DNA of 64,000 nt from Akkermansia muciniphila (GTDB taxonomy: Bacteria > Verrucomicrobiota > Verrucomicrobiia > Limisphaerales > BJHT01): contig CAMAUZ010000023.1 of assembly GCA_945861535.1 (NCBI GenBank), positions 26,427 through 90,426 of the forward strand, read 5' to 3'. This document shows positions 23,771 through 41,365 of the stretch, piece by piece; position 1 is the first letter of the stretch, and each line of letters begins with the position of its first letter. Made by a program: the position numbers and the translations under genes. Below the pieces are notes generated by a model that was not told where the DNA came from, did not search any database, and saw only the letters and a program-made list of their open reading frames with translations.

Positions 23771-24175
23771 TCATTTCCAGGGATTCAACACTTTGCAGCC
23801 CATGCGCTCGAACGGGCTGACATCCCGGGTGACCATTGTGAAGCCCCGCGAGAGCGCGATGGCCGCGATGAAGGAATCGCGCAGGGGCAGTGGCTGGCGC
23901 ACCTCGGCGGTCACTTGGCCCCACTTCGCTGCGGCGCGGGAGTCGAAGTTCAGGAGGCGGTAGCGGCGTGGGAGGTCGTTGGCGAAGGCTTTGATCCGCG
24001 CGTAGTCGGGATGCCCCGTCGGTAAGAGATGAAAGCCCTGCCACACCTCCCCCAGCGAAATTGTGGTTGTGAAGAGCCGCGCCGAGTCATGGGCATCGTG
24101 CCAAGCCATCACGTTGGCATTCGCACGCGGCTTGCTGAATTCACTCACCACGTTGGTGTCGAGGACGAAGTTCAC
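23771..24175 (-). CDS. vapC: PIN-domain toxin (VapC/FitB-like)
   Basis: MNFVLDTNVVSEF...LGEVWQGF...LRDSFIAAIALSRGFTMVTRDVSPFERMG. Confidence 0.9.
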   Translation of the reverse strand: MNFVLDTNVVSEFSKPRANANVMAWHDAHDSARLFTTTISLGEVWQGFHLLPTGHPDYARIKAFANDLPRRYRLLNFDSRAAAKWGQVTAEVRQPLPLRDSFIAAIALSRGFTMVTRDVSPFERMGCKVLNPWK

Positions 24176-24423
24176 AGCTTCACACGCTGCACGAGATCAT
24201 CGGGCATTCGCGGCGGTTCCCAGTCCGTGGTTCTGCGAATCGAGTCATACCAGGCGTTCAATTCCGCGATCGTCTGCTGGCGTTTGGGCTTGCGACGCGG
24301 TTTGGCCGGCGGCTTGGCGGCGCGGGGCCGCGGCTTCATTTGTGCCAACCAGTCAAGCAGCGCCGAGGCCTCGGTTTCCGAGAGGCGCTGCACTTTTTTC
24401 ACGGCGAGTTCCACGGTGCTCAT
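24172..24423 (-). CDS. antitoxin of PIN-domain TA pair
   Basis: MSTVELAVKKVQRLSETEASALLDWLAQMKPR...; overlaps PIN gene by 4 bp. Confidence 0.75.
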   Translation of the reverse strand: MSTVELAVKKVQRLSETEASALLDWLAQMKPRPRAAKPPAKPRRKPKRQQTIAELNAWYDSIRRTTDWEPPRMPDDLVQRVKL

Positions 24424-30365: not shown

Positions 30366-30833
30366 CCGTCAGTAGTCTCGTGCGGAGAACGTGGTAAGTG
30401 ACCGGGATTGGCGGCGGAGCACCCGGAGCGCGGCGTTCACGCCGCAGAAACGTCCGCCTGAAACAGTAGCTCGCGAATAACCCAAGCCCCGCAACGGCGC
30501 CGCCGGCGAAGCCGCCGGGTAGCACAGGCCACTGGCCTGTGCCGAGCGGCGACTCGCCGCTCGAAACGGAAGAGATGCACCAACTCTTTCCGACGTCGGT
30601 TGCCAAGAGAAGCCTTCCTTCCGCTCCGTCCGGCCAGTGGCCGGACGGCACAGGCGGGCCGCCTGTGCAACCCGGTTCCATTGCGGCGATCTGGATAACC
30701 CAGGCGCTCCCGTTGCTCGCGCGGCCGCTGCGGCCTGAAGGCCGCGCTCCGTCCGCGCCTCGGCGCGTTTGCACCTACAGAGAATTTCCAGATAGGTTGA
30801 AAGTTTCATGTCGATGACAGTGCGCGAGTTAGT

Positions 30834-31805: not shown

Positions 31806-32363
31806 TCAATCCTTGACCGGGAAAACCTCCTGCTCCTTAGCTTCTTCCAGCTTGTGCTTCCACTTCTGCGTCCCCGCATGAGTGCCACCGAGGGACAGCA
31901 GTTTCTCCTTGTTGTAAATCATCTCCCCGCGGCTCAACCCGGTGAGCGAATAGTCTCGTTCGAGGAAGATGGCCTCCTCAGGGCAGACTTCCTGACAAAA
32001 GCCGCAGAAGATGCACCGGAGCATGTTGATCTCGAATTCCTTCGGCATCTTCTCCGCGTTGCGCCGGTCGGCGGGCTGTCCCTCGGGACCGGGCGGCGTG
32101 ATCTTGATGGCCTTGGGCGGACAGACGAATTCGCAAAGCTGGCAGGAAACGCACTTGGTGTTGTCCTCCTGATCCTTAACCAGATACGGCGCGCCACGAT
32201 AACCCTCCGGCACGACCCACTTCTGCTCGGGATACTGCATCGTGACCGACTTCCGCCGGAAGACGGTGTTCACGAAATGCCGCGCCGTCACCTTGAACCC
32301 ACCCCAGATGGCCGGTAGGTAAAGGCGTTCCCAGAAGGAAAGCTCTGTGCGTTTAACAATCAT
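31806..32363 (-). CDS. nuoI: NADH-quinone oxidoreductase subunit I (2x[4Fe-4S])
   Basis: CVSCQLCEFVCPPKAI and CIFCGFCQEVCPEEAI. Confidence 0.97.
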   Translation of the reverse strand: MIVKRTELSFWERLYLPAIWGGFKVTARHFVNTVFRRKSVTMQYPEQKWVVPEGYRGAPYLVKDQEDNTKCVSCQLCEFVCPPKAIKITPPGPEGQPADRRNAEKMPKEFEINMLRCIFCGFCQEVCPEEAIFLERDYSLTGLSRGEMIYNKEKLLSLGGTHAGTQKWKHKLEEAKEQEVFPVKD

Positions 32364-32674
32364 GCTGTCGCCTTCAATTTCTCGGTTTTCTTCGCGACCG
32401 GCTTCGCTTTGGAAAGTTTGCGCCGAAACTCTGGCGAAGGCCGGCCCGCCAGCAGGCCCTCCGTACTCAGGTCTTCATCCAGATCCGGCCAGTGAATGCC
32501 ACCGCCAGCGGCACACAACTCCCATTGATTGCGCTGCTTGAGCGAGCCGCGCGCCAGCCGGGGATACCACTGGACCGGCACGCTCAGAACGCGGCCGTCC
32601 AGCAATTCCACCGTCAACATGGTCGCGGTGACCTTCACGTCTTTTACTCGCGGATCAGGGATCAAAGTAGTCAT
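32360..32674 (-). CDS. DUF2442 domain protein
   Basis: DPRVKDVKVTATMLTVELLDGRVLSVPVQWYPRLARGSLKQRNQWEL..GGGIHWPDLDEDLSTEGLL; ATGA overlap with nuoI. Confidence 0.88.
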   Translation of the reverse strand: MTTLIPDPRVKDVKVTATMLTVELLDGRVLSVPVQWYPRLARGSLKQRNQWELCAAGGGIHWPDLDEDLSTEGLLAGRPSPEFRRKLSKAKPVAKKTEKLKATA

Positions 32675-32891
32675 GCCACTGTCTCAATAACTCGATCTGG
32701 TGTTCGAAAATAATCTGTCCGATGCGTTTCAACTCGGCCGGCTTGTAGCCTTCGTTGGATGCCAGCCGGATCGGCTCCAACCAATACTTGGCGGACGCGC
32801 CGCCCTTGTCCACATGGACATGCGCTGGTTCGTTCCCTTCTTCGCTGAAGAAGTAGAATCGAAAACCGCTTTCTCGCAGGACGACTGGCAT
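32655..32891 (-). CDS. DUF4160 domain protein
   Basis: GFRFYFFSEEGNEPAHVHVDKGGASAKYWLEPIRLA; 1-bp gap after nuoH stop. Confidence 0.88.
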   Translation of the reverse strand: MPVVLRESGFRFYFFSEEGNEPAHVHVDKGGASAKYWLEPIRLASNEGYKPAELKRIGQIIFEHQIELLRQWHDYFDP

Positions 32892-32892
32892 T

Positions 32893-33942
32893 TCATTTCG
32901 CGCCTTGCAGCCACAGCACCACCGCCGTCGCCAAAATGTTCGCCAAGGCCACCGGGATGAACCGCCGCCAGCCCAAATCCATCAACTGATCATAGCGGAA
33001 GCGCGGCAGCATCCAGCGCACCCAGATGAACACCCCCATCAGCGCCACGATCTTCCCGAGGAAAATCCCGATGTGGAGCAACCCGCCCGTCAGCGTGCTC
33101 GCCGGCTGGTCCAGGCCGCCAAACGGCAGCGTCCAGCCGCCGAAAAAGAGCGTCACCATCATGGCCGACGACGTGATCATGTTGGCGTACTCAGCCATGA
33201 AAAACAGCGCGAACTTCATCGAGCTGTACTCCGTGTGATACCCGCCCACCAGCTCGGTCTCTGATTCCGGCAGATCGAACGGCAGACGATTGGTCTCGGC
33301 GAACGCCGCCACGAGAAAGATGAAGAACGACACCGGCTGCTTGAACACCAACCACGCGCCGCCCGACTGGTAGTTAATCACCTGACTTAGATTGAGATCG
33401 CCCACCAGCATGAACACCGGGATGACACTCATGCCCATCGCGATCTCATAGGAAATCATCTGCGCGCTCGAACGGATGCCGCCGAGGAAGGGATACTTCG
33501 AGTTGGCCGCATACCCCGCCAGCACGATGCCATACACGCCGAGCGACACGATGCCGAAGGTGTAAAGAATCCCCACGTTCAGGTCCGCAATGACCATCTT
33601 CTGTTTGCCCAGGAACGATCCGAACGGAATCACCGCCACGGTGAGAAACGCCGGTATGAGTGACAGAGCCGGGGCCAGCCAGAAATAGACCTTACGCACA
33701 TGGTCCGGCGTGAAGTCTTCCTTTACAAAACTCTTCAACCCATCCGCCAGCGGCTGCCAAATGCCGAACGGTCCCACCCGATTCGGCCCGACCCGGTCCT
33801 GGATGAACGCGGAAATCTTCCGCTCGGCCAGCACCGAGTAGGCGACCATCGGCAGCAAGACGAGAAAGATGGCGGCGACAATCTTCAGCGTGCTGAAGAG
33901 CAGGAACTGCTGCGTAGGACTAAGATGTTCGAGAAATGGCAT
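32893..33942 (-). CDS. nuoH: NADH-quinone oxidoreductase subunit H
   Basis: ERKISAFIQDRVGPNRVGPFGIWQPLADGLKSFVKEDFTP; FDLPESETELVGGYHTEYSSMKFA. Confidence 0.97.
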   Translation of the reverse strand: MPFLEHLSPTQQFLLFSTLKIVAAIFLVLLPMVAYSVLAERKISAFIQDRVGPNRVGPFGIWQPLADGLKSFVKEDFTPDHVRKVYFWLAPALSLIPAFLTVAVIPFGSFLGKQKMVIADLNVGILYTFGIVSLGVYGIVLAGYAANSKYPFLGGIRSSAQMISYEIAMGMSVIPVFMLVGDLNLSQVINYQSGGAWLVFKQPVSFFIFLVAAFAETNRLPFDLPESETELVGGYHTEYSSMKFALFFMAEYANMITSSAMMVTLFFGGWTLPFGGLDQPASTLTGGLLHIGIFLGKIVALMGVFIWVRWMLPRFRYDQLMDLGWRRFIPVALANILATAVVLWLQGAK

Positions 33943-33955
33943 CGAAGTTTGAAAG

Positions 33956-35698
33956 TCAGATTTGCACCGTCACCCCGAGGTCGCCCAAGCCACCCCACGT
34001 CAGGCCATTGAACCCCGGAACTTCCCGCGCCATCTGGTTGAACAAGCCCTCAATGCTCACGAAGCCATCCTGACCGGTGACATTAAAGACGAGGTCGTGC
34101 AGGAACTCCCACTCAGCCCGCGCGTCGCCCTTCGGCTCGATGGCTTTCATGAAACGCTGTACGCGCCCTTTGACATTGGTGAAGCTGCCGCGCTTCTCGA
34201 CGTGCGCGCAGCCGGGCAACAGATAGTGCGCGGCGGCGGTCGTCGCATTCGGCAGAATGTCGCTGACAATCAGTGTCTCCACTTTGGCTAGCAATTCGAC
34301 GCTGATGCCGTGTTTCGTCACGTCTTCGCCGAAGACGATCAGCGTCTTGATCGTTCCGGCGGCGATGCCTGCGGCGATGCGAGGCAGGTTGATGCCGGCC
34401 TCGGTGAAAGCGATGCCGGTGAGCCGGGCGCCGTTGGTGTTCGGGTTCTTGTCCGAATTCACCAGCAATTTGTCACCTTCACCCACGCGCGGCACTGAGT
34501 CGGTGATGGCCCCAAATTTCTTAGCCAGTTTGCTCAGCAGGAATAACTCCTCATTCGTCTGCCGCGCCGAAGCGACGATGGCGACCGAGCCTTGCGACGC
34601 GCGGCGGAGTTTCTCGGAAAGCTCCTTGATCACCGGTATCCACGAGGATACTTCCCGCTCACCAGAACTGGTCCGCCGAACGACCTGGGTAAGGCGATCT
34701 TCGCGGTTGATCCATTTGTAGTTCAGCCGTCCTGAGTCACACATCCAGGTGGAATTGACCGCGTCGTTCTGGCGCGGTTCGTAGCGATAGACCTTCTCTT
34801 CGCGCGAACCGATGATGGTGTTGCAGCCGGTGCCGCAACTGGTGCAGAGGCTCTTGGTCTCCTTGAGAAACCACACCCGCATCTGGAACCGGAAATCCTT
34901 CGAGGTCAGCGCGCCCACCGGGCAGATGTCCACGGTGTTGAGCGTGTAGTTATTATCAAACTGAGTACCCGGGAAAGCCGCGATGGTGTTGTAGCTGCCG
35001 CGGTTCACGATGCCCAGCTTGTCATCGCCCGCGATGTCCTTGGTGAAACGGATGCAGCGCGTGCAGAGAATGCAGCGCTCGTCGTCGAGCACGATGCGCG
35101 GCCCGAGATCGACCGACTTGGGCTTGTGAACCTTGGCCTCGACGAAGCGGCTCGTGGCCTGACCATGCTCGACCGAGTACTCCTGTAACTTGCACTCACC
35201 CGCCTGATCACAGATCGGACAGTCGAGCGGATGATTGATGAGCAACTCTTCCAGCACACCCTCGCGCATCTGCTTCGTCGCGGGCGAACTCGGATAAATC
35301 TCCATGCCCGGTGAAATGGGCGTCGCACATGCGATGGCTCCGCGTGGTGTCTGCGGTTCGTAGGGCAGGGTCTGTCGTGCGATTTTCGGCGTGCCATCGT
35401 CATTCAGGAGCGGCTTGCGATCCGGTCCCATCGCGGGCAGACCGAACTCCACCAGACACATGCGGCAGTTACCCGCGATCGGCAGCTTCGGATGATAGCA
35501 ATAGTGCGGTACCTCCTTGGCGGCGATCTGACAGGCCTGCAGCATCGTGGTCGGCACCAGCTTGCCCTGCCAGTCAGGCATGAGCTTGGGCACTTCGACC
35601 TCGCGGCCGTCCACCTTGATCTTGAGCTTCTCGACCGGCGGCGGCGCGGCGGGCGCAGCGGGCTTGGTTTCGGTTGTTACGGCGGTGGACATGGTCAT
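33956..35698 (-). CDS. nuoG: NADH-quinone oxidoreductase subunit G
   Basis: [2Fe-2S] CQIAAKEVPHYCYHPKLPIAGNCRMCLVE; HPLDCPICDQAGECKLQ; CILCTRCIRF; CTSCGTGC. Confidence 0.95.
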   Translation of the reverse strand: MTMSTAVTTETKPAAPAAPPPVEKLKIKVDGREVEVPKLMPDWQGKLVPTTMLQACQIAAKEVPHYCYHPKLPIAGNCRMCLVEFGLPAMGPDRKPLLNDDGTPKIARQTLPYEPQTPRGAIACATPISPGMEIYPSSPATKQMREGVLEELLINHPLDCPICDQAGECKLQEYSVEHGQATSRFVEAKVHKPKSVDLGPRIVLDDERCILCTRCIRFTKDIAGDDKLGIVNRGSYNTIAAFPGTQFDNNYTLNTVDICPVGALTSKDFRFQMRVWFLKETKSLCTSCGTGCNTIIGSREEKVYRYEPRQNDAVNSTWMCDSGRLNYKWINREDRLTQVVRRTSSGEREVSSWIPVIKELSEKLRRASQGSVAIVASARQTNEELFLLSKLAKKFGAITDSVPRVGEGDKLLVNSDKNPNTNGARLTGIAFTEAGINLPRIAAGIAAGTIKTLIVFGEDVTKHGISVELLAKVETLIVSDILPNATTAAAHYLLPGCAHVEKRGSFTNVKGRVQRFMKAIEPKGDARAEWEFLHDLVFNVTGQDGFVSIEGLFNQMAREVPGFNGLTWGGLGDLGVTVQI

Positions 35699-35958
35699 GA
35701 AATTTCACCGCGGTGAAGGTCAGTGATTGGAAAAATCATCTGGTAGTCGCCCCACATAAGGTCGCCATCGTGGATGCTAAAGCGCTTAAACTTCGACAGG
35801 TCGCGGTAGTCGGTCGTGTCCGGATTGCGCGCCTTGGCTAGGAATGGGCCAAAATCTACGATGCGTTCCATTCCGTCGTTGAACGATACATGAATCTTGT
35901 AGCCCGACACATAGCGGGCCTTGGTCACTTCGAGATAGTCAACAGCAGCGGCTTTCAT
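35695..35958 (-). CDS. DUF2442 domain protein
   Basis: YISH-like KIHVSFNDGMERIVDFGPFLAKARNPDTTDYRDLSKFKRFSIHDGDLMWGD; ATGA overlaps with both neighbours. Confidence 0.85.
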   Translation of the reverse strand: MKAAAVDYLEVTKARYVSGYKIHVSFNDGMERIVDFGPFLAKARNPDTTDYRDLSKFKRFSIHDGDLMWGDYQMIFPITDLHRGEIS

Positions 35959-36260
35959 TTGATCCTCCGGGTGATGATTTCTGGCTTGGTGCGAACATTA
36001 TGGACAAAGAAGTTGATCCAGCGTCCGACAATCTCGTCGGCCCTGGCTTCGACAAACGATTCGAAGTCTCGCAACTTCTGGCCTTCGAGCGGACGTTTGC
36101 CGGGTATCTCGCCGATTTCGACTCGGACAACCTCTCCATCTTCCACGATGATTTCCGCCCGGCTCTCGCGCCCGGCGTGCTTGCCGTGAACATGAATCGG
36201 CTCGTGCTCATTGGAGTAGAAGAAAATGAGGATACCAAGATATTCGTAGAGCTTGGGCAT
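35955..36260 (-). CDS. DUF4160 domain protein
   Basis: MPKLYEYLGILIFFYSNEHEPIHVHGKHAGRESRAEIIVEDGEV. Confidence 0.88.
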   Translation of the reverse strand: MPKLYEYLGILIFFYSNEHEPIHVHGKHAGRESRAEIIVEDGEVVRVEIGEIPGKRPLEGQKLRDFESFVEARADEIVGRWINFFVHNVRTKPEIITRRIK

Positions 36261-36267
36261 TGCTTTC

Positions 36268-36429
36268 TCACGCTTTAGTGCTGGTGGAGATTTTCGGTGC
36301 CTCAGGCCCGCCGCGCCCCGCCGCGCACTCATGGGTGAGCCGGTTGGCGAAGCCGAGGAACCGCCATGCGCTGACCTCGCCAGTGACGCGATCAGCCAGC
36401 TTCACTAAGAAATGTTTCGGTAACTTCAT
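36268..36429 (-). CDS. 53-aa hypothetical protein
   Basis: MKLPKHFLVKLADRVTGEVSAWRFLGFANRLTHECAAGRGGPEAPKISTSTKA*; ATGA overlap with DUF2283 stop. Confidence 0.5.
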   Translation of the reverse strand: MKLPKHFLVKLADRVTGEVSAWRFLGFANRLTHECAAGRGGPEAPKISTSTKA

Positions 36430-36653
36430 TTAAACGGGGCCGCCGCCAGCGCGATGTTTTCCACAATGAGTCTCGGCAACTGACCCGAACCGAGCACCCG
36501 CTTGGCATCCAGCACTTCAATGCCGACGAGTTGCTCGCCTTCACCCATGTTGAGCGCGACCTCATCGCTGAGGCGCACCGTCCGGCATTGCCGCGGGCCG
36601 TCCAGCAGGCGGATGTAGAGCGCGTCCACTTCGGAGTCGTAGCTGATTTTCAT
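36426..36653 (-). CDS. DUF2283 domain protein (antitoxin-like)
   Basis: MKISYDSEVDALYIRLLDG...VALNMGEGEQLVGIEVLDAKRVL. Confidence 0.9.
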   Translation of the reverse strand: MKISYDSEVDALYIRLLDGPRQCRTVRLSDEVALNMGEGEQLVGIEVLDAKRVLGSGQLPRLIVENIALAAAPFK

Positions 36654-36665
36654 AGTGTCAACCGG

Positions 36666-36920
36666 CTAAAAGTAGAACGTGTAAACGGTGATGACCACAA
36701 TCTCATTCGCTTCTTCTTTGATCACCGGCGCCACCTGCTTGATGGCATAGCGACGACCATTCCAGTCGGCGTTGAACTGGAAATTCTCGCGGCACAGTTC
36801 GCGTCCGTGTTTGGCTGTTTCGCGGCCGCCGCTTCGGATGCTTTCAATGACTTCATCGTGAGTGGCCCCACGTTCCACGCACTGCTCTTGCGCATGGCGG
36901 GTGAGGCGAATTGGTTTCAT
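36666..36920 (-). CDS. DUF4258 domain protein (toxin-like)
   Basis: IRLTRHAQEQCVERGATHDEVIESIRSG...RRYAIKQVAPVIKEEANEIVVITVYTFYF; ATGA overlap with nuoF stop. Confidence 0.88.
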   Translation of the reverse strand: MKPIRLTRHAQEQCVERGATHDEVIESIRSGGRETAKHGRELCRENFQFNADWNGRRYAIKQVAPVIKEEANEIVVITVYTFYF

Positions 36921-38393: not shown

Positions 38394-38467
38394 TGCCCGA
38401 TGGTGTAACGGTAGCACAGCAGATTCTGAATCTGCTTGTCGTGGTTCAAATCCATGTCGGGCAGCCA
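38394..38467 (+). tRNA. tRNA-Gln (anticodon CTG), encoded CCA
   Basis: TGCCCGA ... anticodon stem GCAGA-TTCTGAA-TCTGC ... T-arm CGTGG-TTCAAAT-CCATG ... TCGGGCA-G-CCA; full cloverleaf by hand. Confidence 0.93.
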
Positions 38468-38679
38468 AATTTCTTCACGTGGTTGTCGAAGTCTCGTTTT
38501 CCTTCGAGGCCGCGCCCCCAAAAGCCGAGTTCCATCATCTTGGCGACATTCAAAGCCCATCGCTCGTCCGGAGTCGCGGCCATGGCTTTGGAGTAGCGAA
38601 TCAAGTCGGCTTCGCTCATTCCGGACATGCCCTTGAGCTTGCGATACACCTTTCGCCAGTCTTTGAGGCTTGTTTTCAT
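38446..38679 (-). CDS. 77-aa hypothetical protein, 3' end antisense to tRNA-Gln
   Basis: MKTSLKDWRKVYRKLKGMSGMSEADLIRYSKAMAATPDERWALNVAKMMELGFWGRGLEGKRDFDNHVKKFGCPTWI. Confidence 0.5.
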   Translation of the reverse strand: MKTSLKDWRKVYRKLKGMSGMSEADLIRYSKAMAATPDERWALNVAKMMELGFWGRGLEGKRDFDNHVKKFGCPTWI

Positions 38680-38716
38680 CTTTGCCTTTCGTCGGCATGG
38701 TTCGGGCATGGTTTGC

Positions 38717-39202
38717 TCAACGACCCTGCGCAATAATCTCCGCCGCCTGCGCCGTGCCAACCTTCTCGTGCAAGGTCTCGTTCACCAGCACCACCGGGGC
38801 CGTGCCGCAGCTCGCGAGACACTCGACAAATTCGACGGTGAACTTCCCGTCCGGCGTGGTCTGCGGGACGTGGGCGTGGGCATCGAGGCCGAGTTTGTCA
38901 CAAAAGTGTTTGCGCACATCCGCGCTCCCCGCCAGCGCGCAGCTCAACGTGCGGCACACTTTGATGTGTGTCTTGCCCAGCGGTTCCTGCCGGAACATCG
39001 GGTAGAAAGTAACCAGCTCGTAAACGTTGATCGGCTGCAGTCCGAGCTTCGCCGCCGTCCACTCCATCGCCTCTTTGGAAATCCAGCCAAAGTGCTCCTG
39101 CAACGCGTGCAGCAGCATCAGCGACGCGCTCCGCTTCTGCGGATAGTGCGTGATCAACTCATCGATCTCGGCTTCGAGCGGCGTGGGAACAGTGAAGGTC
39201 AT
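38717..39202 (-). CDS. nuoE: NADH-quinone oxidoreductase subunit E
   Basis: FYPMFRQEPLGKTHIKVCRTLSCALAGS; VECLASCGTAPVVLVN. Confidence 0.96.
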   Translation of the reverse strand: MTFTVPTPLEAEIDELITHYPQKRSASLMLLHALQEHFGWISKEAMEWTAAKLGLQPINVYELVTFYPMFRQEPLGKTHIKVCRTLSCALAGSADVRKHFCDKLGLDAHAHVPQTTPDGKFTVEFVECLASCGTAPVVLVNETLHEKVGTAQAAEIIAQGR

Positions 39203-40864: not shown

Positions 40865-41365
40865 TCAGTTCCGTTTTCGTCTCGCGGGCTTCGGCACGCT
40901 TTCCCCAGCGACTGGCGGCGGACCGCCCTCGCCCTGAATCACCATTCCAGTCACGAGCGGCTGATCCTTGTCCGGCGAAACTTTTCCCGGCACGACAACC
41001 TTGGCCACCGGCTGGGCTTCGATCTCGATGAGCTTCTTGTTCTGGGGATCGACCCAGAGCATCAAACCTTCGAGCGCCCGCGCACCGAGGAGCACGTAGT
41101 CCCCCTTCTCGGCAAAGACGATTTCATCCGTTGTCTCCCGCTGGCCGACGCGCACGAGGGCATAACCTATGTCGCGATACACCAGTTGCCCATTGGCCAT
41201 CTGAAACGGCTGCCGTTTCTCTGGCTTCACATCGATTTGCTCCAACTGCCGCCGCGGAATCCACGTCGCCTCGCTCCCCGTGTCCACCATGAGACGGGGA
41301 ATCGTGACCGCCTTCTCGCGGTCCCCGTGGTTTTTAATGAGGCAGCCGACCGTGAAAGTGCCCAT
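40865..41365 (-). CDS. retropepsin-like (clan AA) aspartic protease family protein
   Basis: LMVDTGSEATWIPRRQLEQIDV...YVLLGARALEGLMLWVDPQNKKL; DTGS plus LLGxxxLE pattern. Confidence 0.8.
   Translation of the reverse strand: MGTFTVGCLIKNHGDREKAVTIPRLMVDTGSEATWIPRRQLEQIDVKPEKRQPFQMANGQLVYRDIGYALVRVGQRETTDEIVFAEKGDYVLLGARALEGLMLWVDPQNKKLIEIEAQPVAKVVVPGKVSPDKDQPLVTGMVIQGEGGPPPVAGESVPKPARRKRN

Follow-up and report, generated by a model that had tools for sequence, protein, structure and literature searches.

A DUF4160/DUF2442 gene pair of the DhiT/DhiA superfamily at the nuoH-nuoI junction, a putative selfish addiction cassette

In the stretch of 64,000 nucleotides analysed here (hereafter the window), from a verrucomicrobial bacterium, two small genes occupy the junction between nuoH and nuoI in the operon of respiratory complex I (nuo), all four genes lying on the minus strand. 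The upstream host gene, nuoH (32893-33942), recognised by the NCBIfam NuoH models, ends with a stop codon at 32893-32895. After the single base 32892 (the junction reads TGA-A-ATG) comes a DUF4160 gene encoding a DhiT-like putative toxin of 78 amino acids (32655-32891; PF13711, 71.9 bits for a cut-off of 23). It overlaps by 20 bp (32655-32674) a DUF2442 gene encoding a DhiA-like putative antitoxin of 104 amino acids (32360-32674; PF10387, 80.8 bits for a cut-off of 23.9), whose stop shares the 4 bp ATGA (32360-32363) with the start of the downstream host gene, nuoI (31806-32363; TIGR01971 above cut-off). Within the pair, the putative toxin gene is thus first and the putative antitoxin gene last. 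The original prediction had placed a DUF4160/DUF2442 pair between nuoH and nuoI, stitched in with exactly this 1-bp gap and these 20-bp and 4-bp overlaps, and the open reading frames and Pfam matches confirm it to the base.

The 1-bp gap after nuoH leaves no room for an intergenic promoter ahead of DUF4160, and a search for sigma-70-like promoter sites returned one between 31800 and 38500, versus 1.8 expected by chance. When the window is compared with another carrier genome (G062), dN/dS is about 0.08 for DUF4160 and about 0.12 for DUF2442, with dS near saturation; these values being well below 1, both genes are maintained. Such purifying selection, together with the recurrence of the pair at the same junction in 12 other genomes, shows that the two open reading frames are real genes and not chance ones.

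Since both Pfam domains exceed their curated cut-offs in adjoining genes, the pair falls within the DUF4160/DUF2442 (DhiT/DhiA) superfamily. It lies outside DhiTA sensu stricto as delimited by the NF048015 and NF048016 cut-offs: the NCBIfam toxin_DhiT model gives 29.5 bits on the DUF4160 protein for a cut-off of 100, which places it in the same superfamily but not in the same equivalog, and the DUF2442 protein has no match to the NCBIfam DhiA model. Judged by family, the two genes would be a remote member of the DhiT/DhiA type II toxin-antitoxin pairs, with the toxin gene in front. Neither protein matched a PADLOC defence family. A profile of the window's DUF2442 lineage matches the solved chain 3k8r_A at 3e-7. 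For DUF4160, the high-confidence predicted structure (pLDDT 92.5) has five strands and two helices and finds no PDB match with E<=0.001, while its sequence finds nothing better than 0.36 among solved structures; a known toxin fold, RelE/ParE-like or other, was dropped as a candidate because of this lack of a PDB match.

Two related systems have been studied at the bench. In Dickeya dadantii, DhiTA was shown experimentally to be an autoregulated toxin-antitoxin system (PMC8198452); it resembles the window pair in its two Pfam families, its toxin-first order and its overlapping genes, but is a separately promoted bicistron, whereas the window pair is embedded in nuo. The Persistence-Enhancing Module of Thermus thermophilus plasmids also has DUF4160 followed by DUF2442; it raised plasmid persistence, no transformants were recovered once the DUF2442 gene was deleted, and the results suggest that the second open reading frame neutralises the first (PMC12724237). 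Unlike the window pair, this module is plasmid-borne and without link to a housekeeping operon. Proteins related to the window's DUF4160 occur on 38 plasmid records; in the records listed, they are annotated as DUF4160 with DUF2442 next to it.

A second DUF4160/DUF2442 pair lies on the minus strand at the nuoF-nuoG junction of the window. Its DUF4160 gene (35955-36260, with a probable start at 36260; PF13711, 41.7 bits) is followed by a DUF2442 gene (35695-35958; PF10387, 30.8 bits) whose stop overlaps the start of nuoG by 4 bp. It is preceded, on the same strand, by a further pair that the original prediction did not mention, made of a DUF4258-like open reading frame overlapping the end of nuoF by 4 bp (36666-36920; PF14076, 20.6 bits, just below the cut-off of 25) and a DUF2283 open reading frame (36426-36653; PF10049, 48.6 bits). 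The DUF4160 proteins of the two junctions are 26% identical by BLASTP, their DUF2442 proteins give no meaningful BLASTP alignment, and, when 59 concatenated pairs are placed in one tree, a single clade uniting the nuoH-nuoI and nuoF-nuoG groups is rejected (AU p=2e-38). These three results rule out a local duplication of the nuoF-nuoG pair; the two pairs are clearly diverged, as had been proposed, and their phylogeny shows that they are not recent tandem copies.

Each junction holds a lineage of its own. We built a profile from seven nuoH-nuoI toxins and ran it over 321 genomes: the top 13 matches (>=110 bits) are all at nuoH-nuoI, although six of them had been held out of the profile, and none of the next 17 loci examined is beside nuo. 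The stitching is the same in all 13 pairs. Ten of them make up a well supported clade and the remaining three, the window pair among them, another clade; one common clade for the 13 is not rejected (AU 0.22). The corresponding nuoF-nuoG profile has 18 matches, of which nine are flanked by nuoF and nuoG, two have only nuoF in view, one is between nuoC and nuoD (L298, G165) and six are elsewhere. Judging from these sequences, the founders would number one or two for nuoH-nuoI and one for the nuoF-nuoG pairs tested. Sampled genomes of the phylum outside the order yielded no nuoH-nuoI type pair at nuo and one further match, which is not beside nuo. In one locus (L166, 12872-13168), a nuoF-nuoG DUF4160 is apparently fused to a DUF2442 remnant, and may be a decaying copy.

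Is the nuo operon a preferred host? A survey of 146 genomes of the order gave 140 DUF4160 matches, of which 13 lie inside nuo operons (seven at nuoH-nuoI, six at nuoF-nuoG), where about 0.4-0.6 would be expected by length, a strong over-representation whose p-value is indicative only, because the carriers are related. When the neighbours of 110 DUF4160 sites outside nuo were clustered, smaller recurrences appeared beside genes that we take, from our reading of their sequences, to be moxR (4 loci), a quinoprotein gene (6) and an efflux gene (7, five of them directly adjoining DUF4160 on the same strand), so that nuo is the strongest host found but not the only one. The original prediction saw in the two pairs a repeated targeting of this operon. 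The enrichment in nuo and the exclusion of a duplication support this, but independent entries are needed only to a modest extent: with so few lineages per junction, a small number of founding entries is enough, the cassettes later coming and going at one fixed address, and nuo is not unique. Other accessory genes are found at nuo junctions in relatives, namely Uma2, an addiction-module antitoxin with a ParE-like gene, PDDEXK_3 and a DNA methylase. The titles and abstracts surveyed in the literature contained no paper that deals with toxin-antitoxin genes located within nuo or within housekeeping operons.

Could the pair instead be kept because it regulates or assembles complex I? The strong purifying selection, the dedicated junction-specific lineages and the perfect coupling to the nuo genes would all agree with such an accessory role. 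However, the pair is missing from most near relatives, sister species included, the same families adjoin the moxR, quinoprotein and efflux genes, and relatives reside on plasmids; we regard this explanation as improbable.

The distribution of the pair is patchy. Carriers at nuoH-nuoI are scattered over about ten families of the order, with near relatives devoid of the pair, and for each junction the host tree requires a minimum of six changes. The pair tree, which like the other pair trees rests on about 180 columns, rejects the NuoH+NuoI topology both for all 13 pairs (AU 1e-46) and within the clade of ten (AU 2e-4). This conflict disfavours simple vertical descent from one founder and, combined with the patchiness, suggests that the cassette, beyond being inherited, comes and goes at a fixed site. 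Within one genus (g27), the pair is present in two species, and the nuoH-nuoI junction of five congeners is empty, with a homologous 13-bp spacer in common; this is most simply read as a gain in the carriers. Alternatively, the pair may be an ancient resident: a single entry into nuoH-nuoI close to the base of the order would have been followed by vertical inheritance and by loss in most lineages, and the scattering would reflect loss instead of transfer. That only one or two lineages exist at the junction, with a single clade tolerated by the AU test, speaks for it. So does the synonymous divergence of the pair, which roughly equals that of nuoI within several carrier pairs (for example, G062-G004 and G144-G183) and agrees with a long stay of the pair beside nuoI rather than with frequent transfer. 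Most genomes would, however, have lost it, as 308 of the 321 have no copy, and neither the topology conflict nor the spacer common to the five g27 congeners is expected from it. We hold this scenario to be unlikely, although not negligibly so.

As to how a cassette could move, transfer with long nuo flanks was discarded: no window-wise jump in identity is seen across nuoH/nuoI, and only the last two or three nuoH codons differ in a carrier. The pair shows no mobile-element ends and no target-site duplication beyond ATGA, so that its mobility is deduced from phylogeny only. In two non-carriers, nuoH and nuoI overlap by ATGA, the very bases with which the cassette ends, so that short homology might conceivably let it enter or leave precisely. 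Such overlaps are common in bacterial operons, and the motif by itself is therefore no proof.

Along the operon, identity between the window and the sister species (G001) is about 91-92%. This species has an empty nuoF-nuoG junction, from which the DUF4258-like/DUF2283 pair is also absent. Of the DUF4160/DUF2442 loci of the window's genome that were compared with it, only one (C32) is shared at an orthologous site, a sign of turnover. At nuoH-nuoI, the sister species has a Y1/RAYT transposase (L103, 5568-6193) bounded by a perfect 36-bp inverted repeat. Counting G001, nine genomes have relatives of this transposase at nuoH-nuoI; this lineage of REP-associated tyrosine transposases (RAYTs; see, for example, PMC2817692) thus shares its address with the pair, but its protein is unrelated to DUF4160 and DUF2442 and is absent from nuoH-nuoI in the window. 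One may wonder whether nuoH-nuoI is a specific landing site for several elements, served for instance by a RAYT-type transposase acting in trans, as the nine genomes and the inverted repeat would allow. Yet the DUF-pair junction sequences examined contain no REP palindromes, and RAYT and pair were never seen together at nuoH-nuoI in one genome, which makes such site-directed insertion very unlikely. In the same species, a nucleotidyltransferase-like open reading frame (L103, 11380-11949; weak DUF6036/AbiEii match) lies upstream of nuoE.

We favour, as the probable explanation, that the nuoH-nuoI pair is a DhiT/DhiA-type type II toxin-antitoxin module acting as a selfish addiction cassette restricted to its junction. 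Presumably without a promoter of its own, it would be transcribed by read-through and translationally coupled with nuo. Because the toxin precedes the antitoxin inside a needed operon, imprecise loss would either damage nuo or leave the toxin unopposed; addiction, with toxicity assumed by analogy with the relatives, may thus be the force that retains the cassette. The lineage would spread patchily between families and re-enter, or be lost from, the same gap, leaving one dedicated lineage per junction. Entry might proceed, at a guess, via short-homology recombination at the conserved nuo ends. A bolder proposal, which we consider doubtful, is that nuo junctions are fixed addresses, each with a dedicated toxin-antitoxin lineage (and a transposase lineage) that moves between families and returns to the same gap without disturbing it, by a targeting mechanism not yet described. 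If the favoured explanation is right, addiction cassettes settle within a core metabolic operon and are faithful to a single junction, offering a concrete, testable case of chromosomal persistence of selfish genes without plasmids or phages, and a caution against taking operon membership as functional partnership.

Other features of the region deserve mention. A 104-amino-acid open reading frame overlapping the end of nuoE (38446-38760) has no Pfam match and has a counterpart in the sister species, and a retropepsin-like aspartic protease open reading frame is found between nuoC and nuoD (40865-41365). Beyond nuoN, a PIN-domain gene and a small upstream open reading frame without family (23771-24423) form a VapBC-like arrangement. 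Finally, about 400 bp of palindromic repeats between nuoL and nuoK (30395-30800), nearly absent in the sister species, have 74 matches in the genome, themselves included.
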